In this document: positions 1,010 to 64,000 of the stretch, piece by piece
Position numbering within the stretch: the first letter of the stretch is position 1
Layout: each line of letters opens with the position of its first letter
NCBI RefSeq assembly: GCF_019649055.1
Contig: NW_026570394.1
Span: forward strand, 1-64,000
Length of the DNA: 64,000 nucleotides
Direction of reading: 5' to 3'
From: Paramacrobiotus metropolitanus
Lineage: Eukaryota > Tardigrada > Eutardigrada > Parachela > Macrobiotidae
Notes under the pieces: generated by a model
What the model was told of the DNA's origin: nothing
Databases searched by the model: none
The model's input: only the letters and a program-made list of their open reading frames with translations
Translations under genes and position numbers: made by a program

Positions 1010-1030
1010 CTCAATAACTACGTGGTGAAA
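991..1030 (+). other. Inverted repeat TTTCACC / GGTGAAA spanning the monomer junction, representative copy
   Basis: A perfect 7-bp inverted repeat with a 26-base spacer joins the A cassette to the next core. The right arm GGTGAAA is present in nearly every monomer. The left arm belongs to the A and A' cassettes; B cassettes read GTCACATTTT there, so the pairing is type-specific. Its functional meaning is unknown. Confidence 0.5.
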
Positions 1031-37085: not shown

Positions 37086-37227
37086 CTCAATAACTACGTG
37101 GTGAAACTGCTCCAAAGTCTGCTTTTAAGGGTTATTCGATGCGCTGAGCACGAATTTCAAGTCGGTTTGCAAAAAAATTTCACCGAAAAAGTTATGGAAA
37201 ACTTGACTATTCACCGGCATTTTAGAT
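37086..37227 (+). repeat. Representative type A' monomer (142 bp)
   Basis: Derived form of type A in which the cassette reads GACTATTCACC and ends TTTTAGATCTC, creating a BglII site (AGATCT) where type A has GGATCT. Sub-variants end TTTAGGTCTC (before 37371, 38097, 39541 and 40258) or CTTAGATCTC (42.3 and 45.9 kb). I first see A' near 35.63 kb. It is the prevailing A form up to 51.76 kb and returns just left of every LINE copy. Confidence 0.92.
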
Positions 37228-40200: not shown

Positions 40201-42077
40201 AAAAAAATTTCACCGAAAAAGTTATGGAAAACCTGACTATTCACCGGCATTTTAGGTCTCAATAACTACGTGGTGAAACTGCTTCAAAGTCTGCTTTTAA
40301 GGGTTATTTGATGCGCTGAGCACGAATTTCAAGTCGGTTTGCAAAAAAAATTTCACCGAAAAAAGTTATGGAAAACTTGACTATTCACCGGCATTTTTAG
40401 ATCTCAATAACTACGTGGTGAAACTCCTCCAAAGTCTGCTTTTAAGGGTTATTTGATGCGCTGAGCACGAATCTGAAATCGGTTTGCAAAAAAAATTTCA
40501 CCAGAAAAAGTTACTGTCAGACGTGTCACATTTTCGCCATGTTGTCAGAACTCAATAACTACGTGGTGAAACTGCTCCAAAGTCTGCTTTTAAAGGTTAT
40601 TCGATGCGCTGAGCACAAATTTCAAGTCGGTTTGCAAAAAAATTTCACCGAAAAAAGTTATGGAAAACTTGACTATTCACCGGCATTTTTGGATCTCAAT
40701 AACTACGTGGTGAAACTGCTCCAAAGTCTGCTTTTAAGGGTTATTCGATGCGCTGAGCACGAATCTGAGATCGGTTTGCAAAAAAATTTCACCAGAAAAA
40801 GTTACTGTCAGACGTGTCACATTTTCGCCATGTTGTCAGAACTCAATAACTACGTGGTGAAACTGCTCCAAAGTCTGCTTTTAAGGGTTATTCGATGCGC
40901 TGAGCACGAATCTGAAATCGGTTTGCAAAAAAATTTCACCAGAAAAGTTACTGTCAGGCGTGTCACATTTTCGCCATGTTGTCAGAACTCAATAACTACG
41001 TGGTGAAACTGCTCCAAAGTCTGCTTTTAAGGGTTATTCGATGCGCTGAGCACGAATTTCAAGTCGGTTTGCAGAAAAAAATTTCACCGAAAAAAGTTAT
41101 GGAAAACTTGACTATTCACCGGCATTTTAGATCTCAATAACTACGTGGTGAAACTGCTCAAAGTCTGCTTTTAAGGGTTATTCGATGCGCTGAGCACGAA
41201 TCTGAGATCGGTTTGCAAAAAAATTTCACCAGAAAAAGTTACTGTCAGACGTGTCACATTTTCGCCATGTTGTCAGAACTCAATAACTGCGTGGTGAAAC
41301 TGCTCCAAAGTCTGCTTTTAATAGTTATTCGATGCGCTGAGCACGAATCTGAAATTGGTTTGCAAAAAAAATTTCACCAGAAAAAGTTACTGTCAGACGT
41401 GTCACATTTTCGGTATGTTGTCAGAACTCAATAACTACGTGGTGAAACTGCTCCAAAGTCTGCTTTTAAGGGTTATTTCTTGCGCTGAGCACGAATCTGA
41501 AATTGGTTTGCAAAAAAAATTTCCCCAGAAAAAGTTACTGTCAGACGTGTCACATTTTCGCCATGTTGTCAGAACTCAATAACCACGTGGTGAAACTGCT
41601 CCAAAGTCTGCTTTTAAGGGTTATTCGATGCGTTGAGCACGAATTTCAAGTCGGTTTGCAAAAAAAATTTCACCGAAAAAAGTTATGGAAAACTTGACTT
41701 TTCACCGGCATTTTTGGATCTCAATAACAACGTGGTGAAACTCCTCCAAAGTCTGCTTTTAAGGGTTATTTGATGCGCTGAGCACGAATCTGATTTCGGT
41801 TTGCAAAAAAAATTTTACCAGAAGAAGTTACTGTCAGACGTGTCACATTTTCGCCATGTTGTCGGAACTCAATAACTACGTGGTGAAACTGCTCCAAAGT
41901 CTGCTTTTAAGCGTTTCTCGATGCGCTGAGCACGAATTTCAAGTCGGTTTGCAAAAAAAATTTCACCGAAAAAAGTTATGGAAAACTTGACTATTCACCG
42001 GCATTTTTAGATCTCAATAACTACGTGGTGAAACTGCTCCAAAGTCTGCTTTTAAGGGTTATTCGATGCGCTGAGCA

Positions 42078-42620
42078 CGAAATTCAAGTCGGTTTGCAGA
42101 AAAAATTTCACCGAAAAAAGTTATGGAAAACCTGACTATTCACCGGCATTTTTAGGTCTCAATAACTACGTGGTGAGACTGCTCCAAAGTCTGTTTTTAA
42201 GGGTTATTCGATGCGCTGAGCACGAATTTCAAGTCGGTTTGCAAAAAAAATTTCACCGAAAAAAGTTATGGAAAACTTGACTATTCACCGGCATTCTTAG
42301 ATCTCAATAACTACGTGGTGTAACTGCTCAAAAGTCTGCTTTTAAGGGTTATTTGATGCGCTGAGCACGAATCTGAGATCGGTTTGCAAAAAAAATTTCA
42401 CCAGAAAAAGTTACTGTCAGACGTGTCACATTTTCGCCATGTTGTCAGAACTCAATAACTGCGTGGTGAAACTGCTCCAAAGTCTGCTTTTAATGGTTAT
42501 TCGATGCGCTGAGCACGAATCTGAAATTGGTTTGCAAAAAAATTTCACCAGAAAAAGTTACTGTCAGACGTGTCACATTTTCGCCATGTTGTCAGAACTC
42601 AATAACTACGTGGTGAAACT
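42078..42620 (+). repeat. Segmental duplication inside the array, copy 1
   Basis: A run of rare variants occurs here in fixed order: GCAGAAAAAATTTC, TTAGGTCTC, GGTGAGACTGC, GTCTGTTTTTAAG, ATTCTTAGATC, GTGTAACTGCTCAAAAG, CTGAGATCGG, AACTGCGTGG, then GAAATTGG. The same run recurs about 3621 bases to the right. The outer limits are approximate. The first half of the run is also repeated once at about 42.80-42.95 kb. Confidence 0.85.
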
Positions 42621-45600
42621 GCTCCAAAGTCTGCTTTTGAAGGTTATTCGATGCGCTGAGCACGAATTTCAAGTCGGTTTGCAAAAAAAATTTCACCGAA
42701 AAAAGTTATGGAAAACTTGACTATTCACCGGCATTTTTAGATCTCAATAACTACGTGGTGAAACTGCTCCAAAGTCTGCTTTTAAGGGTTATTCGATGCG
42801 CTGAGCACGAAATTCAAGTCGGTTTGCAGAAAAAATTTCACCGAAAAAAGTTATGGAAAACCTGACTATTCACCGGCATTTTTAGGTCTCAATAACTACG
42901 TGGTGAGACTGCTCCAAAGTCTGTTTTTAAGGGTTATTCGATGCGCTGAGCACGAATTTCAAGTCGGTTTGCAAAAAATTTCACCGAAAAAAGTTACTGT
43001 CAGACGTGTCACATTTTCGCCATGTTGTCAGAACTCAATAACTACGTGGTGAAACTGCTCCAAAGTCTGCTTTTGAGGGTTATTCGATGCGCTGAGCACG
43101 AATTTCAAGTCGGTTTGCAAAAAAAATTTCACCGAAAAAGTTATGGAAAACTTGACTATTCACCGGCATTTTTAGATCTCAATAACTACGTGGTGAAACT
43201 GCTCCAAAGTCTGCTTTTAAGGGTTATTCGATGCGCTGAGCACGAAATTCAAGTCGGTTTGCAAAAAAATTTCACCGAAAAAGTTATGGAAAACTTGACT
43301 ATTCACCGGCATTTTTAGGTCTCAATAACTACGTGGTGAAACTGCTCCAAAGTCTGCTTTTAAGGGTTATTCGATGCGCTGAGCACGAATTTCAAGTCGG
43401 TTTGCAAAAAAATTTCACCGAAAAAGTTACTGTCAGACGTGTCACATTTTCGCCATGTTGTCAGAACTCAATAACTACGTGGTGAAACTGCTCCAAAGTC
43501 TGCTTTTAAGGGTTATTCGATGCGCTGAGCACGAATTTCAAGTCGGTTTGCAAAAAAATTTCACCGAAAAAGTTATGGAAAACTTGACTATTCACCGGCA
43601 TTTTTAGATCTCAATAACTACGTGGTGAAACTGCTCCAAAGTCTGCTTTTAAGGGTTATTCGATGCGCTGAGCACGAATTTCAAGTCGGTTTGCAAAAAA
43701 ATTTCACCGAAAAAGTTATGGAAAACTTGACTATTCACCGGCATTTTTAGATCTCAATAACTACGTGGTGAAACTGCTCCAAAGTCTGCTTTTAAGGGTT
43801 ATTCGATGCGCTGAGCACGAATTTCAAGTCGGTTTGCAAAAAAATTTCACCGAAAAAAGTTATGGAAAACTTGACTATTCACCGGCATTTTAGATCTCAA
43901 TAACTACGTGGTGAAACTGCTCCAAAGTCTGCTTTTAAGGGTTATTCGATGCGCTGAGCACGAATCTGAGGTCGGTTTGCAAAAAAATTTCACCGAAAAA
44001 GTTACTGTCAGACGTGTCACATTTTCGCCATGTTGTCAGATCTCAATAACTACGTGGTGAAACTGCTCCAAAGTCTGCTTTTAAGGGTTATTCGATGCGC
44101 TGAGCACGAATTTCTGAAGTCGGTTTGCAAAAAAATTTCACCGAAAAAGTTACTGTCAGACGTGTCACATTTTCGCCATGTTGTCAGAACTCAATAACTA
44201 CGTGGTGAAACTGCTCCAAAGTCTGCTTTTAAGGGTTATTCGATGCGCTGAGCACGAATTTCAAGTCGGTTTGCAAAAAAATTTCACCGAAAAAAGTTAT
44301 GGAAAACTTGACTATTCACCGGCATTTTAGATCTCAATAACTACGTGGTGAAACTGCTCCAAAGTCTGCTTTTAAGGGTTATTCGATGCGCTGAGCACGA
44401 ATTTCAAGTCGGTTTGCAAAAAAATTTCACCGAAAAAAGTTATGGAAAACTTGACTATTCACCGGCATTTTTAGATCTCAATAACTACGTGGTGAAACTG
44501 CTCCAAAGTCTGCTTTTAAGGGTTATTCGATGCGCTGAGCACGAATTTCAAGTCGGTTTGCAAAAAAATTTCACCGAAAAAAGTTACTGTCAGACGTGTC
44601 ACATTTTCGCCATGTTGTCAGAACTCAATAACTACGTGGTGAAACTGCTCCAAAGTCTGCTTTTAAGGGTTATTCGATGCGCTGAGCACGAATTTCAAGT
44701 CGGTTTGCAAAAAAATTTCACCGAAAAAGTTATGGAAAACTTGACTATTCACCGGCATTTTAGATCTCAATAACTACGTGGTGAAACTGCTCCAAAGTCT
44801 GCTTTTAAGGGTTATTCGATGCGCTGAGCACGAATTTCAAGTCGGTTTGCAAAAAAATTTCACCGAAAAAAGTTATGGAAAACTTGACTATTCACCGGCA
44901 TTTTTAGATCTCAATAACTACGTGGTGAAACTGCTCCAAAGTCTGCTTTTAAGGGTTATTCGATGCGCTGAGCACGAATCTGAAATCGGTTTGCAAAAAA
45001 ATTTCACCGAAAAAGTTACTGTCAGACGTGTCACATTTTCGCCATGTTGTCAGAACTCAATAACTACGTGGTGAAACTGCTCCAAAGTCTGCTTTTAAGG
45101 GTTATTCGATGCGCTGAGCACGAATTTCAAGTCGGTTTGCAAAAAAAATTTCACCGAAAAAGTTATGGAAAACTTGACTATTCACCGGCATTTTTAGATC
45201 TCAATAACTGCGTGGTCAAACTGCTCCAAAGTCTGCTTTTAAGGGTTATTTGATGCGCTGAGCACGAATTTCAAGTCGGTTTGCAAAAAAATTTCACCGA
45301 AAAAAGTTATGGAAAACTTGACTATTCACCGGCATTTTTAGATCTCAATAACTACGTGGTGAAACTGCTCCAAAGTCTGCTTTTAAGGGTTATTCGATGC
45401 GCTGAGCACGAATCTGAAATTGGTTTGCAAAAAAAATTCACCAGAAAAAGTTACTGTCAGACGTGTCACATTTTCGCCATGTTGTCAGAACTCAATAACT
45501 ACGTGGTGAAACTGCTCCAAAGTCTGCTTTTAAAGGTTATTCGATGCGCTGAGCACGAATTTCAAGTCGGTTTGCAAAAAAATTTCACCGAAAAAAGTTA

Positions 45601-45698
45601 TGGAAAACTTGACTATTCACCGGCATTTTTAGATCTCAATAACTACGTGGTGAAACTGCTCCAAAGTCTGCTTTTAAGGGTTATTCGATGCGCTGAGC

Positions 45699-46240
45699 AC
45701 GAAATTTCAAGTCGGTTTGCAGAAAAAATTTCACCGAAAAAGTTATGGAAAACTTGACTATTCACCGGCATTTTAGGTCTCAATAACTACGTGGTGAGAC
45801 TGCTCCAAAGTCTGTTTTTAAGGGTTATTCGATGCGCTGAGCACGAATTTCAAGTCGGTTTGCAAAAAAAATTTCACCGAAAAAAGTTATGGAAAACTTG
45901 ACTATTCACCGGCATTCTTAGATCTCAATAACTACGTGGTGTAACTGCTCAAAAGTCTGCTTTTAAGGGTTATTTGATGCGCTGAGCACGAATCTGAGAT
46001 CGGTTTGCAAAAAAAATTTCACCAGAAAAAGTTACTGTCAGACGTGTCACATTTTCGCCATGTTGTCAGAACTCAATAACTGCGTGGTGAAACTGCTCCA
46101 AAGTCTGCTTTTAATAGTTATTCGATGCGCTGAGCACGAATCTGAAATTGGTTTGCAAAAAAATTTCACCAGAAAAAGTTACTGTCAGACGTGTCACATT
46201 TTCGCCATGTTGTCAGAACTCAATAACTACGTGGTGAAAC
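45699..46240 (+). repeat. Segmental duplication inside the array, copy 2
   Basis: This carries the same ordered rare variants as the block at 42.08 kb. GTGTAACTGCTC lies at 45939 here and 42318 there, an offset of 3621, which is 25 monomers or five 724-bp pentamers. Small differences (AATTTCAAG against AATTCAAG, TAATAGTT against TAATGGTT) show that the copies have begun to diverge or contain errors. Confidence 0.85.
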
Positions 46241-49200
46241 TGCTCCAAAGTCTGCTTTTAAGGGTTATTCGATGCGCTGAGCACGAATTCTGAAATCGGT
46301 TTGCAAAAAAATTTCACCAGAAAAAGTTACTGTCAGACGTGTCACATTTTCGCCATGTTGTCAGAACTCAATAACTACGTGGTGAAACTGCTCCAAAGTC
46401 TGCTTTTAAGGGTTATTCGATGCGCTGAGCACGAATTTCAAGTCAGTTTGCAAAAAAATTTCACCGAAAAAAGTTATGGAAAACTTGACTATTCACCGGC
46501 ATTTTTAGATCTCAATAACTACGTGGTGAAACTGCTCCAAAGTCTGCTTTTTAAGGGTTATTCGATGCGCTGAGCACGAATTTCAAGTCGGTTTGCAAAA
46601 AAATTTCACCGAAAAAAGTTATGGAAAACTTGACTTTTCACCGGCATTTTTGGATCTCAATAACTACGTGGTGAAACTGCTCCAAAGTCTGCTTTTAAGG
46701 GTTATTCGATGCGCTGAGCACGAATCTCAAGTCGGTTTGCAAAAAAATTTCACCAGAAAAAGTTACTGTCAGACGTGTCACATTTTCGCCATGTTGTCAG
46801 ATCTCAATAACTACGTGGTGAAACTGCTCCAAAGTCTGCTTTTAAGGGTTATTCGATGCGCTGAGCACGAATTTCAAGTCGGTTTGCAAAAAAATTTCAC
46901 CGAAAAAAGTTATGGAAAACTTGACTATTCACCGGCATTTTAGATCTCAATAACTACGTGGTGAAACTGCTCCAAAGTCTGCTTTTAAGGGTTATTCGAT
47001 GCGCTGAGCACGAATTTCAAGTCGGTTTGCAAAAAAATTTCACCGAAAAAGTTATGGAAAACTTGACTATTCACCGGCATTTTAGATCTCAATAACTACG
47101 TGGTGAAACTGCTCCAAAGTCTGCTTTTAAGGGTTATTCGATGCGCTGAGCACGAATCTGAGATCGGTTTGCAAAAAAATTTCACCAGAAAAAGTTACTG
47201 TCAGACGTGTCACATTTTCGCCATGTTGTCAGAACTCAATAACTGCGTGGTGAAACTGCTCCAAAGTCTGCTTTTAAGGGTTATTCGATGCGCTGAGCAC
47301 GAATCTGAAATCGGTTTGCAAAAAAAATTTCACCAGAAAAAGTTACTGTCAGACGTGTCACATTTTCGCCATGTTGTCAGAACTCAATAACTACGTGGTG
47401 AAACTGCTCCAAAGTCTGCTTTTAAGGGTTATTCGATGCGCTGAGCACGAATCTGAAATCGGTTTGCAAAAAAAATTTCACCAGAAAAAGTTACTGTCAG
47501 ACGTGTCACATTTTCGCCATGTTGTCAGAACTCAATAACTACGTGGTGAAACTGCTCCAAAGTCTGCTTTTAAGGGTTATTCGATGCGCTGAGCACGAAT
47601 TTCAAGTCGGTTTGCAAAAAAATTTCACCGAAAAAGTTATGGAAAACTTGACTATTCACCGGCATTTTAGATCTCAATAACTACGTGGTGAAACTGCTCC
47701 AAAGTCTGCTTTTAAGGGTTATTCGATGCGCTGAGCACGAATCTCAAGTCGGTTTGCAAAAAAATTTCACCGAAAAAGTTATGGAAAACTGACTATTCAC
47801 CGGCATTTTTAGGATCTCAATAACTACGTGGTGAAACTGCTCCAAAGTCTGCTTTTAAGGGTTATTCGATGCGCTGAGCACGAATTTCAAGTCGGTTTGC
47901 AAAAAAATTTCACCGAAAAAGTTACTGTCAGACGTGTCACATTTTCGCCATGTTGTCAGAACTCAATAACTACGTGGTGAAACTGCTCCAAAGTCTGCTT
48001 TTAAGGGTTATTCGATGCGCTGAGCACGAATTTCAAGTCGGTTTGCAAAAAAATTTCACCGAAAAAAGTTATGGAAAACTTGACTATTCACCGGCATTTT
48101 AGATCTCAATAACTACGTGGTGAAACTGCTCCAAAGTCTGCTTTTAAGGGTTATTCGATGCGCTGAGCACGAATTTCAAGTCGGTTTGCAAAAAAATTTC
48201 ACCGAAAAAGTTATGGAAAACTTGACTTTTCACCGGCATTTTTAGATCTCAATAACTACGTGGTGAAACTGCTCCAAAGTCTGCTTTTAAGGGTTATTCG
48301 ATGCGCTGAGCACGAATCTGATATCGGTTTGCAAAAAAATTTCACCAGAAGAAGTTACTGTCAGACGTGTCACATTTTCGCCATGTTGTCAGAACTCAAT
48401 AACTACGTGGTGAAACTGCTCCAAAGTCTGCTTTTAAGGGTTATTCGATGCGCTGAGCACGAATTTCAAGTCGGTTTGCAAAAAAATTTCACCGAAAAAA
48501 GTTATGGAAAACTTGACTATTCACCGGCATTTTAGATCTCAATAACTACGTGGTGAAACTGCTCCAAAGTCTGCTTTTAAGGGTTATTCGATGCGCTGAG
48601 CACGAATTTCAAGTCGGTTTGCAAAAAAATTTCACCGAAAAAGTTATGGAAAACTTGACTATTCACCGGCATTTTTAGATCTCAATAACTACGTGGTGAA
48701 ACTGCTCCAAAGTCTGTTTTTAAGGGTTATTCGATGCGCTGAGCACGAATTTCAAGTCGGTTTGCAAAAAAATTTCACCGAAAAAAGTTATGGAAAACTT
48801 GACTATTCACCGGCATTTTAGATCTCAATAACTACGTGGTGAAACTGCTCCAAAGTCTGCTTTTAAGGGTTATTCGATGCGCTGAGCACGAATCTGAGAT
48901 CGGTTTGCAAAAAAATTTCACCAGAAAAGTTACTGTCAGACGTGTCACATTTTCGCCATGTTGTCAGAACTCAATAACTACGTGGTGAAACTGCTCCAAA
49001 GTCTGCTTTTAATAGTTATTCGATGCGCTGAGCACGAATTTCTGAAGTCGGTTTGCAAAAAAATTTCACCAGAAAAAGTTACTGTCAGACGTGTCACATT
49101 TTCGCCATGTTGTCAGAACTCAATAACTACGTGGTGAAACTGCTCCAAAGTCTGCTTTTAAGGGTTATTCGATGCGCTGAGCACGAATCTGAAATCGGTT

Positions 49201-51769
49201 TGCAAAAAAATTTCACCAGAAGAAGTTACTGTCAGACGTGTCACATTTTCGCCATGTTGTCAGAACTCAATAACTACGTGGTGAAACTGCTCCAAAGTCT
49301 GCTTTTAAGGGTTATTCGATGCGCTGAGCACGAATTTCAAGTCGGTTTGCAAAAAAATTTCACCGAAAAAAGTTATGGAAAACTTGACTATTCACCGGCA
49401 TTTTTAGATCTCAATAACTACGTGGTGAAACTGCTCCAAAGTCTGCTTTTAAGGGTTATTCGATGCGCTGAGCACGAATTTCAAGTCGGTTTGCGAAAAA
49501 AATTTCACCGAAAAAAGTTATGGAAAACTTGACTATTCACCGGCATTTTAGATCTCAATAACTACGTGGTGAAACTGCTCCAAAGTCTGCTTTTAAGGGT
49601 TATTCGATGCGCTGAGCACGAATTTCAAGTCGGTTTGCAAAAAAAATTTCACCGAAAAAAGTTACTGTCAGACGTGTCACATTTTCGCCATGTTGTCAGA
49701 ACTCAATAACTACGTGGTGAAACTGCTCCAAAGTCTGCTTTTAAGGGTTATTCGATGCGCTGAGCACGAATTTCAAGTCGGTTTGCAAAAAAATTTCACC
49801 GAAAAAGTTATGGAAAACTTGACTATTCACCGGCATTTTAGATCTCAATAACTACGTGGTGAAACTGCTCCAAAGTCTGCTTTTAAGGGTTATTCGATGC
49901 GCTGAGCACGAATTTCAAGTCGGTTTGCAAAAAAAATTTCACCGAAAAAAGTTATGGAAAACTTGACTATTCACCGGCATTTTTAGATCTCAATAACTAC
50001 GTGGTGAAACTGCCCCAAAGTCTGCTTTTAAGGGTTATTTGATGCGCTGAGCACGAATCTGATATCGGTTTGCAAAAAAATTTCACCAGAAGAAGTTACT
50101 GTCAGACGTGTCACATTTTCGCCATGTTGTCAGAACTCAATAACTACGTGGTGAAACTGCTCCAAAGTCTGCTTTTAAGGGTTATTCGATGCGCTGAGCA
50201 CGAATTTCAAATCGGTTTGCAAAAAAATTTCACCGAAAAAAGTTATGGAAAACTTGACTATTCACCGGCATTTTTAGATCTCAATAACTACGTGGTGAAA
50301 CTGCCCAAAGTCTGCTTTTAAGGGTTATTCGATGCGCTGAGCACGAATCTGAAATCGGTTTGCAAAAAAATTTCACCAGAAAAAGTTACTGTCAGACGTG
50401 TCACATTTTCGCCATGTTGTCAGAACTCAATAACTACGTGGTGAAACTGCTCCCAAAGTCTGCTTTTGAAGGTTATTCGATGCGCTGAGCACGAATTTCA
50501 AATCGGTTTGCAAAAAAAATTTCACCGAAAAAGTTATGGAAAACTTGACTATTCACCGGCATTTTAGATCTCAATAACTACGTGGTGAAACTGCTCCAAA
50601 GTCTGCTTTTTAAGGGTTATTCGATGCGCTGAGCACGAATTTCAAGTCGGTTTGCAAAAAAATTTCACCGAAAAAAGTTATGGAAAACTTGACTATTCAC
50701 CGGCATTTTAGATCTCAATAACTACGTGGTGAAACTGCCCAAAGTCTGCTTTTAAGGGTTATTCGATGCGTTGAGCACGAATCTGAAATCGGTTTGCAAA
50801 AAAATTTCACCAGAAAAAGTTACTGTCAGACGTATCACATTTCGCCATGTTGTCAGAACTCAATAACTACGTGGTGAAACTGCTCCAAAGTCTGCTTTTA
50901 AGGGTTATTCGATGCGCTGAGCACGAATTTCAAGTCGGTTTGCAAAAAAAATTTCACCGAAAAAGTTATGGAAAACTTGACTATTCACCGGCATTTTTAG
51001 ATCTCAATAACTACGTGGTGAAACTGCTCCAAAGTCTGCTTTTAAAGGTTATTCGATGCGCTGAGCACGAATTTCAGAATCGGTTTGCAAAAAAATTTCA
51101 CCGAAAAAGTTATGGAAAACTTGACTTTTCACCGGCATTTTAGATCTCAATAACTACGTGGTGAAACTGCTCCAAAGTCTGCTTTTAAGGGTTATTCGAT
51201 GCGCTGAGCACGAAATTTCAAGTCGGTTTGCAAAAAAAATTTCAACGAAAAGTTATGGAAAACTTGACTTTTCACCGGCATTTTAGATCTCAATAACTAC
51301 GTGGTGAAACTGCTCCAAAGTCTGCTTTTGAAAGTTTTTCGATGCGCTGAGCACGAATTTCAAGTCGGTTTGCAAAAAAATTTCACCGAAAAAGTTATGG
51401 AAAACTTGACTATTCACCGGCATTTTAGATCTCAATAACTACGTGGTGAAACTGCTCCAAAGTCTGTTTTAAGGGTTATTCGATGCGCTGAGCACGAATT
51501 TCAAGTCGGTTTGCAAAAAAATTTCACCGAAAAAGTTATGGAAAACTTGACTATTCACCGGCATTTTTAGATCTCAATAACTACGTGGTGAAACTGCCCA
51601 AAGTCTGCTTTTAAAGGTTATTTGATGCGTTGAGCACGAATCTGAAATCGGTTTGCAAAAAAATTTCACCGAAAAAAGTTATGGAAAACTTGACTATTCA
51701 CCGGCATTTTTAGATCTCAATAACTACGTGGTGAAACTGCTCCAAAGTCTGCTTTTATAATAATGGAAG

Positions 51770-51775
51770 TTTATT
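51770..51775 (-). promoter_or_regulatory. Polyadenylation signal AATAAA of LINE copy 1
   Basis: AATAAA on the minus strand (TTTATT on the plus strand) lies 12 bases before the 3' junction of the element. That is where a retrotransposon 3' end would carry it. There is no long poly(A) tail after it, only CATTATTAT. Confidence 0.65.
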
Positions 51776-52177
51776 GTCCTTGCAACGGGCGGTTGCCCCT
51801 CTAGGCTTCAGACAGCGGGAAGAAACAGAACGTAACAACAACACCAAGGAATAATGACATGTAAACATCAAGGTCATCGTTATGTAAAACACAGAAGGAA
51901 ACGTGGCAAAACGACAAGCATTAGCCATCAACATCACACGAAGAGACAGGAACAGAGTAGGAAGTAGGAACTTATGTTGCGATTGCGAATAGTATAGTGT
52001 TACCTATGTGGAAAAAGGGAGGAGACGATCGCGCTGGGGTCGATGCATAAAACCAAAACCCACATACTAATAAAGTAATTATTGAATTTCACAGAAATTT
52101 TCAAAAAATAAAAACCGTGGGGAAAAGGAAAGCACCGACACTTACGCACGTAATTGCCTTGTAATGTCGTCTGACAA

Positions 52178-52750
52178 CTAATTCGCAATCACCGTGAAGT
52201 TTAGTACGTAGGAAACAATGTACAGTACGCAGTGACCATGACAACAACAATAATAGCTGCACTAAACAATTTTTTGATTTTTTGACGATTTTAGCAGAAG
52301 GTAGATCCTGTAGATTCACCGTCTTCAGGGCTTCGGTGAAGGTATTCAACGTGATGTAAGCAGCAGATGGCAGCGGAAGTTCGTTCCAGACTGATACAAG
52401 GCTGTTGAGATGCGATTCGTGGGTAGTGATAACTGTTCGCCCACAGATGGTTGTCGGTGCCGGTTTGATAGGACACGGGTGCTTCATAAGACGTTCTGAT
52501 GTCCTGGTGTTTCCTGCAACAGACTCAAGCACCGCAGCCGAGAATCGAAGTGGTAATACAACCATTTCACCCATCGGAATTACCCGAAATACTAATTTAT
52601 ACATGAACAACAAAGCTTTTTTCATACATCGGGTGCGGAGATCATCCCATTTAAGTTCTTTCAGACGTTCACTGTAAATCAAGACATTGCTGCCGAGTCG
52701 TAGAGTTTTGGTGAACCTCCTTTTGCATCGTTCAATTTCATTTGTCGACT
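52178..52750 (-). pseudogene. Reverse-transcriptase ORF C-terminal remnant, copy 1
   Basis: This is the least damaged of the four remnants. Read on the minus strand, the frame is open from the truncation point and begins with the hallmark IERCKRRFTKTL (52736 to 52701), followed by YSERLKELKW, a YK-containing helix, a TSERLM segment, then SVWNELP and TFTEALK. This order (IE-x-QRRFTK-like, ERLK-x-L-W, late WN-x-LP, F-x-x-L) is typical of the region after the RT domain in CR1/L2/Jockey-type non-LTR elements; the family is recognised from memory and not searched. After about 155 codons a one-base-shorter T-run at about 52267-52284, compared with copies 2 and 3, shifts the frame. Without that shift it would stop at 52178. 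No catalytic residues remain, so it cannot be active. Confidence 0.85.
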
Positions 52751-54854
52751 TTTCAACGAAAAAAGTTATGGAAAACTTGACTTTTCACCGGCATTTTGGA
52801 TCTCAATAACTACGTGGTGAAACTGCTCCAAAGTCTGCTTTTAAAGTTATTCGATGCGCTGAGCACGAATTTCAAATCGGTTTGCAAAAAAATTTCACCG
52901 AAAAAGTTATGGAAAACTTGACTTTTCACCGGCATTTTGGATCTCAATAACTACGTGGTGAAACTGCTCCAAAGTCTGCTTTTAAGGGTTATTCGATGCG
53001 CTGAGCACGAATCTGAAATCGGTTTGCAAAAAAATTTCACCAGAAAAAGTTACTGTCAGACGTGTCACATTTTCGCCATGTTGAGAACTCAATAACTACG
53101 TGGTGAAACTGCTCCAAAGTCTGCTTTTAAGGGTTATTCGATGCGCTGAGCACGAATTTTAAGTCGGTTTGCAAAAAAAAATTTCACCGAAAAAGTTATG
53201 GAAAACTTGACTTTTCACCGGCATTTTGGATCTCAATAACTACGTGGTGAAACTGGCTCCAAAGTCTGCTTTTAAGGGTTTATTCGATGCGCTGAGCACG
53301 AATCTGAAATCTGGTTCGCAAAAAAATTTCACCGAAAAAGTTACTGTCAGACGTGTCACATCTTCGCCATGGTGTCAGAACTCAATAACTACGTGGTGAA
53401 ACTGCTCCAAAGTCTGCTTTTTAAGGGTTATTCGATGCGCTGAGCACGAATTTTAAATCGGTTTGCAAAAAAAATTTCACCGAAAAAAGTTATGGAAAAC
53501 TTGCATTTTCACCGGCATTTTTGGATCTCAATAACTACGTGGTGAAACTGCTCCAAAGTCTGCTTTTAAAGTTATTCGATGCGCTGAGCACGAATTTCAA
53601 GTCAGGTTGCAAAAAAATTTCACCGAAAAAGTTATGGAAAACTTGCATTTTCACCGGCATTTTGGATCTCAATAACTACGTGGTGAAACCAGCTCCAAAG
53701 TCTGCTTTTAAGGGTTATTCGATGCGCTGAGCACGAATCTGAAATCGGTTTGCAAAAAAAATTTCACCAGAAAAAGTTACTGTCAGACGTGTCACATTTT
53801 CGCCGTTGTCAGAACTCAATAACTACGTGGTGAAACTGCTCCAAAGTCTGCTTTAAGGGTTATTCGATGCGCTGAGCACGAATTTTAAATCGGTTTGCAA
53901 AAAAAATTTCACCGAAAAAAGTTATGGAAAACTTGCATTTTCACCGGCATTTTGGATCTCAATAACTACGTGGTGAAACTGCTCCAAAGTCTGCTTTTAA
54001 AGTTATTCGATGCGCTGAGCACGAATTTTAAGTCAGGTTGCAAAAAAATTTCACCGAAAAAGTTATGGAAAACTTGACTTTTCACCGGCATTTTGGATCT
54101 CAATAACTACGTGGTGAAACTGCTCCAAAGTCTGCTTTAAAGGTTATTCGATGCGCTGAGCACGAATCTGAAGTGGTTTGCAAAAAAAATTTCACCGAAA
54201 AAGTTACTGTCAGACGTGTCACATTTTCGCCATGTTGTGAGAACTCAATAACTACGTGGTGAAACTGCTCCAAAGTCTGCTTTTAAGGGTTATTCGATGC
54301 GCTGAGCACGAATTTCAAGTCGGTTTGCAAAAAAATTTCACCGAAAAAAGTTATGGAAAACTTGACTTTCACCGGCATTTTAGATCTCAATAACTACGTG
54401 GTGAAACTGCTCCAAAGTCTGCTTTTAAGGGTTATTCGATGCGCTGAGCACGAATTTCAAATCGGTTTGCAAAAAATTTCAACGAAAAAAGTTATGGAAA
54501 ACTTGACTTTTCACCGGCATTTTAGATCTCAATAACTACGTGGTGAAACTGCTCCAAAGTCTGCTTTTAAGGGTTATTCGATGCGCTGAGCACGAATTTC
54601 AAGTCGGTTTGCAAAAAATTTCACCGAAAAAAGTTATGGAAAACTTGACTATTCACCGGCATTTTTAGATCTCAATAACTACGTGGTGAAACTGCTCCAA
54701 AGTCTGTTTTTAAGGGTTATTCGATGCGCTGAGCACGAATTTCAAGTCGGTTTGCAAAAAAATTTCACCGAAAAAGTTATGGAAAACTTGACTATTCACC
54801 GGCATTTTAGATCTCAATAACTACGTGGTGAAACTGCTCCAAAGTCTGCTTTTA
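52751..54854 (+). repeat. Satellite block between LINE copies 1 and 2
   Basis: About 14-15 monomers. It starts with GGATCT-type A units, including the shortened CTTTTAAAGTTATTCG form and a B with GGTTCGC and CCATGGTGTCAG (about 53.31-53.38 kb), all features of the pentamer domain at 4-10 kb. From about 54.38 kb it switches to TAGATCT-type units and ends with GTCTGTTTTTAAGGG plus one A' unit before the LINE. Confidence 0.93.
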
Positions 54855-54866
54855 TAATAATGGAAG

Positions 54867-54872
54867 TTTATT
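54867..54872 (-). promoter_or_regulatory. Polyadenylation signal AATAAA of LINE copy 2
   Basis: AATAAA sits at the same distance (12 bases) from the 3' junction as in copy 1 and is followed by the same CATTATTAT end. Confidence 0.65.
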
Positions 54873-55270
54873 GTCCTTGCAACGGAGCGGTTGCCCCCTC
54901 TAGGCTTCAGACAGCGGGAAGAAACAGAACGTAACAACAACACCAAGGAATAATGACATGTAAACATCAAGGTCATCGTTATGTAAAACACAGAGAACGT
55001 GGCAAAACGACAAGCATTAGCCATCAACATCACACGAAGAGACAGGAACAGAGTAGGAAGTAGGAACTTATGTTGCGATTGCGAATAGTATAGTGTTACC
55101 TATGTGGAAAAAGGGAGGAGACGATCGCGCTGGGGTCGATGCATAAAACCAAAACCCATACTAATAAAGTAATTATTGAATTTCACAGAAATTTTCAAAA
55201 AATAAAAACCGTGGGAAAAGGAAAGCACCGACACTTACGCACGTAATTGCCTTGTAATGTCGTCTGACAA

Positions 55271-55839
55271 CTAATTCGCAATCACCGTGAAGTTTAGTAC
55301 GTGAAACAATGTACAGTACGCAGTGACCATGACAACAACAATAATAGCTGCACTAAACAATTTTTTGATTTTTTTGACGATTTTAGCAGAAGGTAGATCC
55401 TGTAGATTCACCGTCTTCAGGGCTTCGGTGAAGGTATTCAACGTGATGTAAGCAGCAGATGGCAGCGGAAGTTCGTTCAGACTGATACAAGGCTGTTGAG
55501 ATGCGATTCGTGGGTAGTGATAACTGTTCGCCCACAGATGGTTGTCGGTGCCGGTTTGATAGGACACGGGTGCTTCATAAGACGTTCTGATGTCCTGGTG
55601 TTTCCTGCAACAGACTCAAGCACCGCAGCCGAGAATCGAAGTGGTAATACAACCATTTCACCCATCAGATTACGAAATACTAATTTATACATGAACAACA
55701 AAGCTTTTTTTCATACATCGGGTGCGGAGATCATCCCATTTAAGTTCTTTCAGACGTTCACTGTAATTCAAGACATTGCTGCCGAGTCGTAGAGTTTTGG
55801 TGAACCTCCTTTTGCATCGTTCAATTTCATTTGTCGACT
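55271..55839 (-). pseudogene. Reverse-transcriptase ORF C-terminal remnant, copy 2
   Basis: This has the same LINE RT tail as copy 1, with the frame broken at several points: a seven-base T-run after AAAGC near 55.70 kb (six in copy 1), a three-base net loss near 55.67 kb, and a missing C in GTTCGTTCAG near 55.478 kb that breaks the frame just before the WNELP motif. Downstream the frame reads NELPLPSAAYITLNTF and ends at a stop at 55271-55273 after a hydrophobic stretch containing AAIIVVVMV. That C-terminal end is shared with copy 3, so it is probably the original reading. Confidence 0.82.
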
Positions 55840-57669
55840 TTTCAACGAAAAAAAGTTATGGAAAACTTGACTTTTCACCGGCATTTTGGATCTCAATAAC
55901 TACGTGGTGAAACTGCTCCAAAGTCTGCTTTTAAAGTTATTCGATGCGCTGAGCACGAATTTCAAGTCGGTTTGCAAAAAAATTTCACCGAAAAAAGTTA
56001 TGGAAAACTTGACTTTTCACCGGCATTTTGGATCTCAATAACTACGTGGTGAAACTGCTCCAAAGTCTGCTTTTAAAGTTATTCGATGCGCTGAGCACGA
56101 ATTTCAGAATCGGTTTGCAAAAAAATTTCACCGAAAAAAGTTATGGAAAACTTGCACATTTTCACCGGCATTTTGGATCTCAATAACTACGTGGTGAAAC
56201 TGCTCAAAGTCTGCTTTTGAAAGTTGTTTTCGATGCGCTGAGCACGAATTTCAAGAAGTCGGTTTGCAAAAAAATTTCACCGAAAAAGTTATGGAAAACT
56301 TGACTATTCACCGGCATTTTTAGATCTCAATAACTACGTGGTGAAACTGCTCCAAAGTCTGCTTTTAAAGTTATTCGATGCGCTGAGCACGAATTTCAAA
56401 TCGGGTTGCAAAAAAATTTCACCGAAAAAAGTTATGGAAAACTTGCATTTTCACCGGCATTTTGGATCTCAATAACTACGTGGTGAAACTGGCTCCAAAG
56501 TCTGCTTTTTAAGGGTTATTCGATGCGCTGAGCACGAATCTGAAATCGGTTTGCAAAAAAATTTCACCAGAAAAAGTTACTGTCAGACGTGTCACATTTT
56601 CGCCTTGGTGTCAGAACTCAATAACTACGTGGTGAAACTGCTCCGAAGTCTGCTTTTAAGGGTTATTCGATGCGCTGAGCACGAATTTTAAGTCGGTTTG
56701 CAAAAAAATTTCAACGAAAAAAGTTATGGAAAACTTGCATTTTCACCGGCATTTTGGATCTCAATAACTACGTGGTGAAACTGCTCCAAAGTCTGCTTTT
56801 AAAAGTTATTCGATGCGCTGAGCACGAATTTTAGAATCGGGTTGCAAAAAAAATTTCACCGAAAAAGTTATGGAAAACTTGACTTTTCACCGGCATTTTG
56901 GATCTCAATAACTACGTGGTGAAACTGCTAAAAAGTCTGCTTTTAAGTAAGGTTATTCGATGCGCTGAGCACGAATCTGAAATTGGTTTGCAAAAAAAAT
57001 TTCACCGAAAAAGTTACTGTCAGACGTGTCACATTTTCGCCATGTTGTGAGAACTCAATAACTACGTGGTGAAACTGCTCCAAGAATCTGCTTTTAAGGG
57101 TTTTTCGATGCGCTGAGCACGAATTTCAAGTCGGTTTGCAAAAAAATTTCACCGAAAAAGTTATGGAAAACTTGACTATTCACCGGCATTTTAGATCTCA
57201 ATAACTACGTGGTGAAACTGCTCCAAAGTCTGCTTTTAAGGGTTATTCGATGCGCTGAGCACGAAATTCAAGTCGGTTTGCAAAAAAATTTCAGCAGAAA
57301 AAGTTATGGAAAACTTGACTTTTCACCGGCATTTTTAGATCTCAATAACTACGTGGTGAAACTGCTCCAAAGTCTGCTTTTAAAGTTTTTCGATGCGCTG
57401 AGCACGAATTTCAAGTCGGTTTGCAAAAAAATTTCACCGAAAAAAGTTATGGAAAACTTGACTATTCACCGGCATTTTAGATCTCAATAACTACGTGGTG
57501 AAACTGCTCCAAAGTCTGTTTTTAAAGGGGTTATTCGATGCGCTGAGCACGAATTTCAAGTCAGTTTGCAAAAAAATTTCATGAAAAAAGTTATGGAAAA
57601 CTTGACTATTCACCGGCATTTTTAGATCTCAATAACTACGTGGTGAAACTGCTCCAAAGTCTGCTTTTA
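55840..57669 (+). repeat. Satellite block between LINE copies 2 and 3
   Basis: About 12-13 monomers. GGATCT-type units come first, with one TAGATCT unit near 56.32 kb preceded by a TTTTGAAAGTTGTTTTCG variant. GGATCT units with a CCTTGGTGTCAG-type B (about 56.60 kb) follow, then A' units from about 57.19 kb to the LINE. The last unit has ATTTCATGAAAAAAG where CACCG is usual. Confidence 0.93.
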
Positions 57670-57681
57670 TAATAATGGAAG

Positions 57682-57687
57682 TTTATT
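57682..57687 (-). promoter_or_regulatory. Polyadenylation signal AATAAA of LINE copy 3
   Basis: Same hexamer at the same offset from the 3' junction as in the other copies. Confidence 0.65.
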
Positions 57688-58067
57688 GTCCTTGCAACGG
57701 AGCAGACAGCGGGAAGAAACAGAACGTAACAACAACACCAAGGAATAATGACATGTAAACATCAAGGTCATCGTTATGTAAAACACAGAAGGAAACGTGG
57801 CAAAACGACAAGCATTAGCCATCAACATCACACGAAGAGACAGGAACAGAGTAGGAAGTAGGAACTTATGTTGCGATTGCGAATAGTATAGTGTTACCTA
57901 TGTGGAAAAGGGAGGGGAGACGATCGCGCTGGGGTCGATGCATAAAACCAAAACCCACATACTAATAAAGTAATTGAATTTCACAGAAATTTTCAAAAAA
58001 TAAAAACCGTGGGAAAGGAAAGCACCGACACTTACGCACGTAATTGCCTTGTAATGTCGTCTGACAA

Positions 58068-58638
58068 CTAATTCGCAATCACCGTGAAGTTTAGTACGTA
58101 GGGAAACAATGTACAGTACGCAGTGACCATGACAACAACAATAATAGCTGCACTAAACAATTTTTTGATTTTTTTGACGATTTTAGCAGAAGGTAGATCC
58201 TGTAGATTCACCGTCTTCAGGGCTTCGGTGAAGGTATTCAACGTGATGTAAGCAGCAGATGGCAGCGGAAGTTCGTTCCAGACTGATACAAGGCTGTTGA
58301 GATGCGATTCGTGGGTAGTGATAACTGTTCGCCCACAGATGGTTGTCAGTGCCGGTTTGATAGGACACGGGTGCTTCATAAGACGTTCTGATGTCTGGTG
58401 TTTCCTGCAACAGACTCAAGCACCGCAGCCGAGAATCGAAGTGGTAATACAACCATTTCACCCATCGGAATTGCGAAATACTAATTTATACATGAACAAC
58501 AAAGCTTTTTCATACATCGGGTGCGGAGATCATCCCATTTAAGTTCTTTCAGACGTTCACTGTAATTCAAGACATTGCTGCCGAGTCGTAGAGTTTTGGT
58601 GAACCTCCTTTTGCATCGTTCAATTTCATTTGTCGACT
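58068..58638 (-). pseudogene. Reverse-transcriptase ORF C-terminal remnant, copy 3
   Basis: LINE RT tail with frameshifts near 58.51 kb (five-base T-run against six in copy 1), 58.47 kb (two-base net loss in the GGAATT region) and 58.395 kb (GTCTGG in place of GTCCTGG). From the start of the MKHPCPIKPA segment the frame is intact through SVWNELP, TFTEALK and a hydrophobic tail to the stop at 58068-58070, giving the cleanest view of the original C-terminus. Upstream motifs (IERCKRRFTKTL, ERLKELKW) are still readable in other frames. Confidence 0.83.
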
Positions 58639-59442
58639 TTTTCAGCGAAAAAGTTATGGAAAACTTGACTTTTCACCGGCATTTTGGATCTCAATAACTA
58701 CGTGGTGAAACTGCTCCAAAGTCTGCTTTTAAAGTTATTCGATGCGCTGAGCACGAATTTCAAGTCGGTTTGCAAAAAAATTTCACCGAAAAAAGTTATG
58801 GAAAACTTGACTTTTCACCGGCATTTTGGATCTCAATAACTACGTGGTGAAACTGCTCAAAGTCTGCTTTTAAAGTTATTCGATGCGCTGAGCACGAATT
58901 TCAAGTCAGGTTTGCAAAAAAAATTTCACCGAAAAAGTTATGGAAAACTTGCATTTTTCACCGGCATTTTGGATCTCAATAACTACGTGGTGAAACTGCT
59001 CCAAAGTCTGCTTTTGAAAGTTTTCGATGCGCTGAGCACGAATTTCAAGTCGGTTTGCAAAAAAATTTCACCGAAAAAGTTATGGAAAACTTGACTATTC
59101 ACCGGCATTTTAGATCTCAATAACTACGTGGTGAAACTGGTCCAAAGTCTGTTTTTAAGGGTTATTCGATGCGCTGAGCACGAATTTCAAGTCGGTTTGC
59201 AAAAAAATTTCACCGAAAAAGTTATGGAAAACTTGACTATTCACCGGCATTTTAGATCTCAATAACTACGTGGTGAAACTGCCCCAAAGTCTGCTTTTAA
59301 AGGTTATTTGATGCGTTGAGCACGAATCTGAAATCGGTTTGCAAAAAAATTTCACCGAAAAAGTTATGGAAAACTTGACTATTCACCGGCATTTTTAGAT
59401 CTCAATAACTACGTGGTGAAACTGCTCCAAAGTCTGCTTTTA
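58639..59442 (+). repeat. Satellite block between LINE copies 3 and 4
   Basis: The shortest inter-LINE block, five full monomers plus partial units. Three GGATCT-type units are followed by A' units carrying, in order, TTTTGAAAGTTTTCG (59013), GTCTGTTTTTAAGGG, and GCCCCAAAG with TTTGATGCGTTGAGC. This three-unit order is the same as left of LINE copy 1 (51327 onward). Confidence 0.93.
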
Positions 59443-59454
59443 TAATAATGGAAG

Positions 59455-59460
59455 TTTATT
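59455..59460 (-). promoter_or_regulatory. Polyadenylation signal AATAAA of LINE copy 4
   Basis: Same hexamer at the same offset from the 3' junction as in the other copies. Confidence 0.65.
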
Positions 59461-59862
59461 GTCCTTGCAACGGAGCGGTTGCCCCCTCTAGGCTTCAGAC
59501 AGCGGGAAGAAACAGAACGTAACAACAACACCAAGGAATAATGACATGTAAACATCAAGGTCATCGTTATGTAAAACACAGAAGGAAACGTGGCAAAACG
59601 ACAAGCATTAGCCATCAACATCACACGAAGAGACAGGAACAGAGTAGGAAGTAGGAACTTATGTTGCGATTGCGAATAGTATAGTGTTACCTATGTGGAA
59701 AAAGGGAGGAGACGATCGCGCTGGGGTCGATGCATAAAACCAAAACCCACATACTAATAAAGTAATTATTGAATTTCACAGAAATTTTCAAAATAAAAAC
59801 CGTGGGGAAAAGGAAAGCACCGACACTTACGCACGTAATTGCCTTGTAATGTCGTCTGACAA

Positions 59863-60436
59863 CTAATTCGCAATCACCGTGAAGTTTAGTACGTAGGAAA
59901 CAATGTACAGTACGCAGTGACCATGACAACAACAATAATAGCTGCACTAAACAATTTTTTTGATTTTTTTGACGATTTTAGCAGAAGGTAGATCCTGTAG
60001 ATTCACCGTCTTCAGGGCTTCGGTGAAGGTATTCAACGTGATGTAAGCAGCAGATGGCAGCGGAAGTTCGTTCCAGACTGATACAAGGCTGTTGAGATGC
60101 GATTCGTGGGTAGTGATAACTGTTCGCCCACAGATGGTTGTCGGTGCCGGTTTGATAGGACACGGGTGCTTCATAAGACGTTCTGATGTCCTGGTGTTTC
60201 CTGCAACAGACTCAAGCACCGCAGCCGAGAATCGAAGTGGTAATACAACCATTTCACCCATCGGAATTACCCGAAATACTAATTTATACATGAACAACAA
60301 AGCTTTTTCATACATCGGGTGCGGAGATCATCCCATTTAAGTTCTTTCAGACGTTCACTGTAATTCAAGACATTGCTGCCGAGTCGTAGAGTTTTGGTGA
60401 ACCTCCTTTTGCATCGTTCAATTTCATTTGTCGACT
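59863..60436 (-). pseudogene. Reverse-transcriptase ORF C-terminal remnant, copy 4
   Basis: LINE RT tail with a five-base T-run after AAAGC near 60.305 kb that breaks the frame between ERLKELKW and the YK helix, and a longer T-run (seven) near 59.955 kb that breaks it after KIVKKIKK. Between these, about 120 codons are open and include TSERLM, SVWNELP and TFTEALK. The in-register ancestral stop corresponds to 59863-59865. The frame breaks are all in homopolymers. Confidence 0.83.
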
Positions 60437-63400
60437 TTTCAACGAAAAAAGTTATGGAAAACTTGACTTTTCACCGGCATTTTTGGATCTCAATAACTAC
60501 GTGGTGAAACTGCTCCAAAGTCTGCTTTTAAAAGTTATTCGATGCGCTGAGCACGAATTTCAAGTCGGTTTGCAAAAAAATTTCACCGAAAAAGTTATGG
60601 AAAACTTGACTTTTCACCGGCATTTTGGATCTCAATAACTACGTGGTGAAACAACTCCAAAGTCTGCTTTTTAAGGGGTTGTTCGATGCGCTGAGCACGA
60701 ATCTGAAATCGGTTTGCAAAAAAATTTCACCAGAAAAAGTTACTGTCAGACGTGTCACATTTTCGCCATGTTGTGAGAACTCAATAACTACGTGGTGAAA
60801 CTGCTCCAAAGTCTGCTTTTAAGGGTTATTCGATGCGCTGAGCACGAATTTTAAGTCGGTTTGCAAAAAAAATTCACCGAAAAAGTTATGGAAAACTTGA
60901 CTTTTCACCGGCATTTTGGATCTCAATAACTACGTGGTGAAACAGCTCCAAAGTCTGCTTTTAAGAGTTATTCGATGCGCTGAGCACGAATCTGAAATTG
61001 GTTCGCAAAAAAATTTCACCAGAAAAGTTTCTGTCAGACGTGTCACATCTTCGCCATTGTGTCAGAACTCAATAACTACGTGGTGAAACTGCTCCAAAGT
61101 CTGCTTTTAAGGGTTATTCGATGCGCTGAGCACGAATTTTAAGTCGGTTTGCAAAAAAATTTCAACGAAAAAGTTATGGAAAACTTGCATTTTCACCGGC
61201 ATTTTGGATCTCAATAACTACGTGGTGAAACTGCTCCAAAGTCTGCTTTTAAAGTTATTCGATGCGCTGAGCACGAATTTCAAGTCAGGTTGCAAAAAAA
61301 ATTTCACCGAAAAAAGTTATGGAAAACTTGCATTTTCACCGGCATTTTGGATCTCAATAACTACGTGGTGAAACAGCTCCAAAGTCTGCTTTTAAGGGTT
61401 ATTCGATGCGCTGAGCACGAATCTGAAATTGGTTAGCAAAAAAAATTTCACCAGAAAAAGTTACTGTCAGACGTGTCACATTTCGCCATGGTGTCCGAAC
61501 TCAATAACTACGTGGTGAAACTGCTCCAAAGTCTGCTTTTAAGGGTTATTCGATGCGCTGAGCACGAATTTCAAGTTGGGTTGCAAAAAAAATTTCACCG
61601 AAAAAAGTTATGGAAAACTTGACTTTTCACCGGCATTTTTGGATCTCAATAACTACGTGGTGAAACTGCTAAAAAGTCTGCTTTAAATGGTTATTCGATG
61701 CGCTGAGCACGAATCTGAAATTGGTTTGCAAAAAAAATTTCACCAGAAAAAGTTACTGTCAGACGTGTCACATTTTCGCCATGTTGTGAGAACTCAATAA
61801 CTACGTGGTGAAACTGCTCCAAAGATCTGCTTTAAGGGTTATTCGATGCGCTGAGCACGAATTTTAAGTCAGTTTGCAAAAAAAATTTCAACGCAAAAAG
61901 TTATGGAAAACTTGACATTTTCACCGGCATTTTGGATCTCAATAACTACGTGGTGAAACTGCTCCAAAGTCTGCTTTTAAAGTTATTCGATGCGCTGAGC
62001 ACGAATTTTAAGTCAGGTTGCAAAAAAAATTTCACCGAAAAAAGTTATGGAAAACTTGACTTTTCACCCGGCATTTTTGGATCTCAATAACTACGTGGTG
62101 AAACTGCTCCAAAAGTCTGCTTTTAAGTGGTTATTCGATGCGCTGAGCACGAATCTGAAATCGGTTTGCAAAAAAAATTTCACCAGAAAAAGTTACTGTC
62201 AGACGTGTCACATTTTCGCCATGTTGTCAGAACTCAATAACTACGTGGTGAAACTGCTCAAAGTCTGCTTTTAAGGGTTATTCGATGCGCTGAGCACGAA
62301 TTTTAAGTCAGTTTGCAAAAAAATTTCAACGAAAAAAGTTATGGAAAACTTGACTTTTCACCGGCATTTTGGATCTCAATAACTACGTGGTGAAACAGCT
62401 CCAAAGTCTGCTTTTAAGGGTTGTTCGATGCGCTGAGCACGAATCTGAAATCGGTTTGCAAAAAAAATTTCACCAGAAAAAGTTACTGTCAGACGTGTCA
62501 CATTTTCGCCATGTTGTGACAACTCAATAACTACGTGGTGAAACTGCTCCAAAGTCTGCTTTTAAGGGTTATTCGATGCGCTGAGCACGAATTTTAAGTC
62601 GGTTGCAAAAAAAATTTCACCGAAAAAGTTATGGAAAACTTGACTTTTCACCGGCATTTTGGATCTCAATAACTACGTGGTGAAACAGCTCCAAAGTCTG
62701 CTTTTAAGGTTATTCGATGCGCTGAGCACGAATCTGAAATTGGTTCGCAGAAAAAAATTTCACCAGAAAAAGTTACTGTCAGACGTGTCACATTTTCGCC
62801 ATGGTGTCAGAACTCAATAACTACGTGGTGAAACTGCTCCAAAGTCTGCTTTTAAGGGTTATTCGATGCGCTGAGCACGAATTTTAAGTCAGTTTGCAAA
62901 AAAATTTCAACGCGAAAAAGTTATGGAAAACTTGCATTTTCACCGGCATTTTTGGATCTCCAATAACTACGTGGTGAAACTGCTCCAAAGTCTGCTTTTA
63001 AAGTTATTCGATGCGCTGAGCACGAATTTCAAGTCGGGTTGCAAAAAAATTTTACCGAAAAAGTTATGGAAAACTTGCATTTTTCACCGGCATTTTGGAT
63101 CTCAATAACTACGTGGTGAAACTGGCTCAAAGTCTGCTTTTAAGGGTTATTCGATGCGCTGAGCACGAATCTGAAATTGGTTAGCAAAAAAATTTCACCA
63201 GAAAAGTTACTGTCAGACGTGTCACATTTTCGCCATGTTGTCAGAACTCAATAACTACGTGGTGAAACTGCTCCAAAGTCTGCTTTTAAGGGTTATTCGA
63301 TGCGCTGAGCACGAATTTTAAGTCAGTTTGCAAAAAAATTTCAACGAAAAAGTTATGGAAAACTTGACTTTTCACCGGCATTTTGGATCTCAATAACTAC

Positions 63401-64000
63401 GTGGTGAAACAGCTCCAAAGTCTGCTTTTAAGGGTTATTCGATGCGCTGAGCACGAATCTGAAATCAGTTTGCAAAAAAAATTTCACCAGAAAAAGTTAC
63501 TGTCAGACGTGTCACATTTTCGCCATGTTGTGAGAACTCAATAACTACGTGGTGAAACTGCTCCAAAGTCTGCTTTTAAGGGTTATTCGATGCGCTGAGC
63601 ACGAATTTTAAGTCAGTTTGCAAAAAAATTTCACCGAAAAAGTTATGGAAAACTTGACTTTTCACCGGCATTTTGGATCTCAATAACTACGTGGTGAAAC
63701 AGCTCCAAAGTCTGCTTTTAAGGGTTATTCGATGCGCTGAGCACGAATCTGAAATCGGTTTGCAAAAAAATTTCACCAGAAAAAGTTACTGTCAGACGTG
63801 TCACATTTCGCCATGTTGTAGAACTCAATAACTACGTGGTGAAACTGCTCCAAAGTCTGCTTTTAAGGGTTATTCGATGCGCTGAGCACGAATTTTAAGT
63901 CGGTTTGCAAAAAAATTTCACCGAAAAGTTATGGAAAACTTGACTTTTCACCGGCATTTTGGATCTCAATAACTACGTGGTGAAACAGCTCCAAAAGTCT
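60437..64000 (+). repeat. Right-hand satellite block, pentamer-like variants
   Basis: About 24-25 GGATCT-type A and B monomers running off the window edge; I saw no TAGATCT units. Marker variants GAAACAGCTCC, GGTTCGC, GGTTAGC, TTCAACG and GCATTTTC link it to the pentamer domain at 4-10 kb. Marked B units start at 60994 (GGTTCGC), 61425 (GGTTAGC), 62735 (GGTTCGC) and 63173 (GGTTAGC), so a block recurs at an offset of about 1745 (12 monomers). Confidence 0.92.

Follow-up and report, generated by a model that had tools for sequence, protein, structure and literature searches.

At least twelve copies of one truncated LINE fragment lie in a satellite array; they share their breakpoints and a common origin, occur in tandem and block duplications, and have reassorted flanks. 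We consider it very probable (about 0.93) that a single 5'-truncated LINE insertion into one monomer by target-primed reverse transcription, followed by copying together with the neighbouring monomers through unequal crossover and/or gene conversion, gave rise to all of them. The earlier note had read the arrangement as one insertion amplified with the satellite. This is strongly supported by the common breakpoints, truncation point and ~50-bp loss, by the grouping of the copies in one tree group, and by a chimeric monomer that adjoins 8 of the 12 copies.

LINE fragments within the satellite array

The window, i.e. the whole 64-kb stretch of DNA that was analysed, is satellite throughout, with monomers of ~143 bp that are in part organized as ~290-bp dimers (TRF periods 143/290). 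Its domains (Table 1) differ in motif counts per 2 kb: from 36 kb onward AGAT occurs 3-9 times and GGAT 0-2 times, and upstream of this position AGAT occurs 0-2 times and GGAT 6-10 times. The array sequence was read in C174:1-193000 and C226:10001-121202 of an assembly of 169.8 Mb in 533 contigs. On C226 the array extends from ~37 kb to the contig end, and in total it covers ~277 kb over C174 and C226. A pattern search of the assembly with a satellite probe gave 3461 matches (3385 + 76). An Rfam search of the window gave no match, and several literature searches returned chiefly general papers and none on this satellite. Searches for COX1, SL1 RNA and the telomere motifs TTAGG and TTAGGN likewise gave no match; the SL1 result carries little weight, as its controls were negative too. 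A small satellite block close to the left array edge, at C226:19051-19629, is separated by ~17 kb of other DNA from the main array (36969 onward). A related satellite with ~149-bp spacing, in which ~64 bp are ~82% identical to the ~143-bp monomer, occupies C184:1600-65400.

Table 1. Positions of LINE fragments, spacers, duplicated block and satellite domains in the window
Feature	Position	Strand	Description	Basis
G-type satellite domain	1..35500	+	GGATCT monomers alternating with b-type GTCAGACG monomers, ~290-bp dimers	TRF periods, monomer typing
A-type satellite domain	36000..51756	+	TAGATCT / CTATTCACC monomers mixed with b-type	2-kb motif counts
Private chimeric monomer left of a1	51573..51715	+	b-type first half with TTTGATGCGTTGAGC, A-type second half; precedes 8/12 LINE copies	
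LINE fragment a1	51757..52753	-	3' end of ORF2 and 3' UTR, 5'-truncated; interrupted monomer 51716-52801	blastn, junctions, ORF
Spacer a1-a2	52802..54812	+	14 monomers: G-type, then four A-type before next LINE	monomer typing
LINE fragment a2	54854..55842	-	interrupted monomer 54813-55891	blastn, junctions
Spacer a2-a3	55892..57627	+	12 monomers; apparently recombined from the two other kinds of spacer	
Two-LINE block	56760..63000	+	duplicated at C174:71349-77630, 2.0% substitutions over 6.2 kb, 14.6 kb away	
LINE fragment a3	57669..58641	-	~20-bp internal deletion near 3' end; interrupted monomer 57628-58689	blastn, junctions
Spacer a3-a4	58690..59400	+	5 monomers: G1t G1 A1a A1a A2a	monomer typing
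LINE fragment a4	59442..60439	-	interrupted monomer 59401-60488	blastn, junctions
G-type satellite domain, resumed right of LINE cluster	60489..64000	+		monomer typing, 2-kb counts

Four fragments (a1-a4) of 973-998 bp lie in the window, all in a single orientation on the minus strand, with start-to-start spacings of 3097, 2815 and 1773 bp. Four ~1-kb LINE fragments with one orientation, matching junctions and these spacings had been described in the earlier note, and both coordinates and junctions could be verified; the common monomer phase claimed there was confirmed as well, every copy breaking the ~143-bp monomer at the identical base. On the minus strand, a1 contains an open C-terminal part of the LINE ORF2. 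A Pfam search with the 165-aa fragment by itself gave nothing above the cut-off.

The left junction consists of CTGCTTTT followed by ATAATAATGGAAG in all four window copies (also written as CTGCTTTT followed by ATAATAATGG). At the right junction the window copies read GTCGACTTTT(T)CA[AG]CGAAAAA, i.e. GTCGACTTTT is followed by CAACG with one or two additional T in some copies. In a genome-wide pattern search the left junction was found 12 times (11 exact matches, one with one mismatch) and the right junction 11 times exactly, the twelfth, that of a3 at 57669, being off by one base. The matches are confined to C174 (7) and C226 (5), all on the plus strand, and reversed control patterns for both junctions gave no match genome-wide.

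All 12 copies possess the same breakpoints on both sides and the same 5' truncation point, and they lack the same monomer segment: relative to the uninterrupted monomer, ~50 bp (AGGGTTATTC...GCAAAAAAA) are absent at the insertion. The sequences flanking the insertion on the left and on the right do not repeat each other, i.e. no target-site duplication was found here. Deletion of the target site is a known minority outcome of LINE insertion, and the junctions would fit priming at TTTT/AA of an insertion that was 5'-truncated and accompanied by such a deletion. Since the exact pre-insertion site was not found in a LINE-free state, the target may have been lost either at insertion or by a later deletion.

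In the four window copies the monomer immediately to the left ends with AGATCT and the half monomer immediately to the right ends with GGATCT, and over all 12 copies the immediate pieces are of the AGAT kind on the left and of the GGAT kind on the right. Beyond the half monomer on the right, the first full monomer belongs to the shared G-type in only 10 of them. The flank polarity proposed earlier (A' units on the left, GGATCT units on the right) thus holds for the immediate pieces and, on the right, only in part for the full monomer beyond.

Relatives of the LINE

In a relative on C45, ORF2 is 1014 aa long and contains RVT_1 (1.4e-32) and Exo_endo_phos_2 (8.7e-9), so that the full-length element combines the AP-type endonuclease and the reverse transcriptase by which a LINE is recognized. 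Over 1 kb, the window fragments show ~73% identity to the 3' end of this relative. Other family members are dispersed in the assembly, most of them with 71-75% identity and two with 92-95%. The nearest relatives of the 12 copies outside the array were found on C19 (~2% diverged) and C57 (~7%), both in non-tandem DNA and with flanks unlike those of the 12 copies. The C19 relative matches over a shorter length and carries a TTA-repeat tail of its own; the 3' end of the element can carry TTA repeats. In the C57 relative the sequence continues differently past the 5' truncation point.

We calculated a tree from the 12 copies, the C19 and C57 relatives and four further relatives. The 12 copies form one star-like group (82/82), with C19 next to it (90/93), and at four sites they differ from both C19 and C57. 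Differences among the copies are largely small indels, mostly private, together with a few local scrambles; isolated substitutions are rare and again mostly private, and most of the fragments carry frame-breaking indels. Small scrambled indels in single LINE copies are located at 54990-55000 and 57700 of the window and at C174:72297-72326. A single variant is clearly shared, by a1, a7 and b2, which come from three separate clusters. We read most of the indels and scrambles as assembly consensus error in repeats, and one must keep in mind that such likely error leaves the true divergence, the exact number of copies and part of the long-range joins provisional.

A natural control is present in the same array. 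The array is interrupted at C174:177752-182640 by a LINE of the same family, full-length but with a broken frame, in the opposite orientation and at another monomer phase than the 12 copies, and with little or no target-site duplication. Its junction was found once; it is 70% identical over the shared part and forms the longest branch of the tree. As this relative stayed single-copy, insertion into the satellite does not automatically bring amplification, and frequent insertion does not explain the 12 copies. LINE copies at other phases with their own target-site duplications had been named in the earlier note as evidence that would speak against a single insertion. Such a copy exists here in a weak form; being a distinct element with far greater divergence, it does not refute the single-insertion reading.

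Duplicated units and reassorted flanks

The spacers between LINE copies contain 3, 4, 5, 12, 14 and ~24 monomers in differing orders. Spacers like that between a3 and a4 are found between a5 and a6 (C174:73301-74015) and between b3 and b4 (C226:100111-100833), and the latter two differ at 3 of 712 sites. Between the b1-b2 spacer and the four monomers left of b1 there is 1 substitution in 570, compared to 8% for a control stretch, so that b1-b2 represents a tandem duplication of the LINE plus its left flank. Among the unit pairs that are comparable, which are only some of them, spacers of the same class differ by 0.4-3.2%, against the 8% of the four-monomer control stretch. In addition to the two-LINE block of Table 1, C174:74016-78463 is collinear with C226:102358-106795 at 2.8% substitutions.

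A unit of ~1.8 kb (the LINE plus 5 monomers) recurs three times and never twice in a row; unit lengths and spacings range from 1.5 to 4.6 kb, with at most five copies per cluster. A higher-order repeat has a fixed number and order of monomers, arranged head to tail, and this arrangement was not found. The recurrent 1.8-kb unit and the duplicated 6.2-kb block agree with the earlier suggestion of a new, larger higher-order repeat; the variable spacings, the short runs and the reshuffled flanks do not. The term is too strong for the LINE-satellite unit, which is an irregular, nested compound repeat. It has the features of a composite satellite, as the same segment of a transposable element (TE) recurs with the same breakpoints and phase in 12/12 copies and as element and flanking satellite were duplicated together.

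A further hint towards a common history arises from the chimeric monomer, which is the left neighbour of a1, a4, a6, a7 and b1-b4. Its first half is otherwise known from b-type monomers of C226. The 25-bp tag of the chimera has 15 exact matches: 8 adjoin the LINE, 6 are LINE-free on C226 and 1 is LINE-free on C432, and the LINE-free ones all have a b-type second half. The full chimeric monomer was not found without an adjoining LINE, and LINE-free monomers with its first half lie 1-5 kb upstream of b1. The copies with this neighbour (left class I) pair with three or more kinds of right flank, and two kinds of left flank accompany the commonest right one. Repeated unequal exchange or conversion would be expected to mix the flank classes in this way, whereas one duplication of a block would not.

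Origin of the copies and known composite satellites

The sequence of events may be pictured as follows. A LINE of the AP-endonuclease and reverse-transcriptase type with a TTA-repeat 3' tail would have inserted once, 5'-truncated, into one ~143-bp monomer. The details of target-primed reverse transcription are those we infer from the junctions, with a probable nick at CTGCTTTT/AA on the plus strand and a loss of ~50 bp of target. The LINE-bearing monomer would have stayed in the satellite register, and unequal crossover and/or gene conversion would have copied it together with adjacent monomers, the copied segments comprising local tandem units of 1.5-4.6 kb and blocks of several kb. Probably blocks of tens of kb were copied as well, which would have taken the border of A-domain, LINE and G-domain to three places. 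This order of events, and exchange in preference to other ways of copying (e.g. rolling-circle or break-induced replication), is what we infer from the arrangement. There is no indication that the compound unit has a function; it behaves as a passenger and as a marker of array turnover.

Independent insertions of a site-specific LINE at the same monomer position can practically be dismissed. Site-specific LINEs are known (R1/R2-like elements) and the one monomer position of all copies would suit such an element, but 12/12 also agree in their 5' truncation point and in the ~50 bp of lost target, and the flanking chimeric monomers are common to copies. Neither is the family restricted to one target sequence: its C19 and C57 members sit in unrelated, non-tandem DNA and the in-array relative occupies another phase. 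The common 5' truncation point and flanks refute independent or site-specific insertion in practice. It is also very improbable that one or a few LINE-bearing units were multiplied in the assembly only, by the assembler or through unmerged haplotypes. While both C174 and C226 start and stop within the satellite array, and most differences between the copies are indels of the kind left by residual consensus error, the combinations of left and right flanks differ between copies. The collinear blocks moreover differ by 2.0-2.8% substitutions, which exceeds the isolated substitutions among the LINE copies, and C174 by itself holds 7 copies across 91 kb.

A variant of the single-insertion reading, not exclusive of it, concerns the large-scale order of the array. 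The LINE might have inserted where A-type meets G-type satellite, or have come to lie there later, and multiplication might mainly have concerned a block of tens of kb with this border, the local units being secondary; we regard this as possible but give it somewhat less than even odds. From left to right, A-to-G transitions occur at ~52 kb and ~142 kb of C174 and at ~93 kb of C226, with LINE copies at 3/3, and G-to-A transitions at ~36 kb and ~125 kb of C174, with a LINE at 0/2. The G-type stretches right of the LINE clusters are closer to one another than to the stretches at 90-123 kb, which also favours a multiplied border. Against it, several copies have only about four A-type monomers in an otherwise G-type array, which indicates that small cassettes moved too, and the collinearity of large blocks is weak. 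A decayed ~90-kb duplication that carried the border is suggested, with modest support (Fisher p 0.02, calculated on overlapping, hence non-independent, blocks). Rather unlikely, in our opinion, is that the LINE itself acts as a preferred exchange site, its ~1 kb of near-identical non-satellite sequence directing recombination between distant parts of the array. If true, this would explain both the flanks reassorted around an unchanged core and the location of every A-to-G border at a LINE.

The single insertion followed by copying with the satellite has counterparts in other organisms. Composite satellites that contain TEs include the human LSAU-beta-satellite composites and the bovine 1.711b satellite with its inserted element. 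As in these, a mobile-element segment has a fixed place in the satellite unit and is copied along with it; the human and bovine composites consist of many regular copies, whereas here we find 12 assembled copies with irregular spacing in short runs. ATHILA elements in Arabidopsis were duplicated after integration within the centromeric satellite. The same is reported for the CRM retrotransposon in the centromeric satellite of Brachypodium (PMC10910784). The present insertion was likewise multiplied after integration inside the surrounding satellite, although CRM and ATHILA are LTR elements of plant centromeres and here a 5'-truncated non-LTR element is concerned. In the Drosophila histone cluster, the insertion position and the type of TE identify units of the array, and units marked in this way can spread by duplication or gene conversion (PMC12400953). 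There the rare marked units serve as anchors, whereas here the marked unit has spread. A unique mark in a satellite reveals what parts were copied and how large they were, both of which plain monomers hide. The case is a further instance of the known duplication of TEs within satellites, at an irregular, low-copy stage, and a clear new LINE-satellite example of a known route by which repetitive DNA gains complexity.
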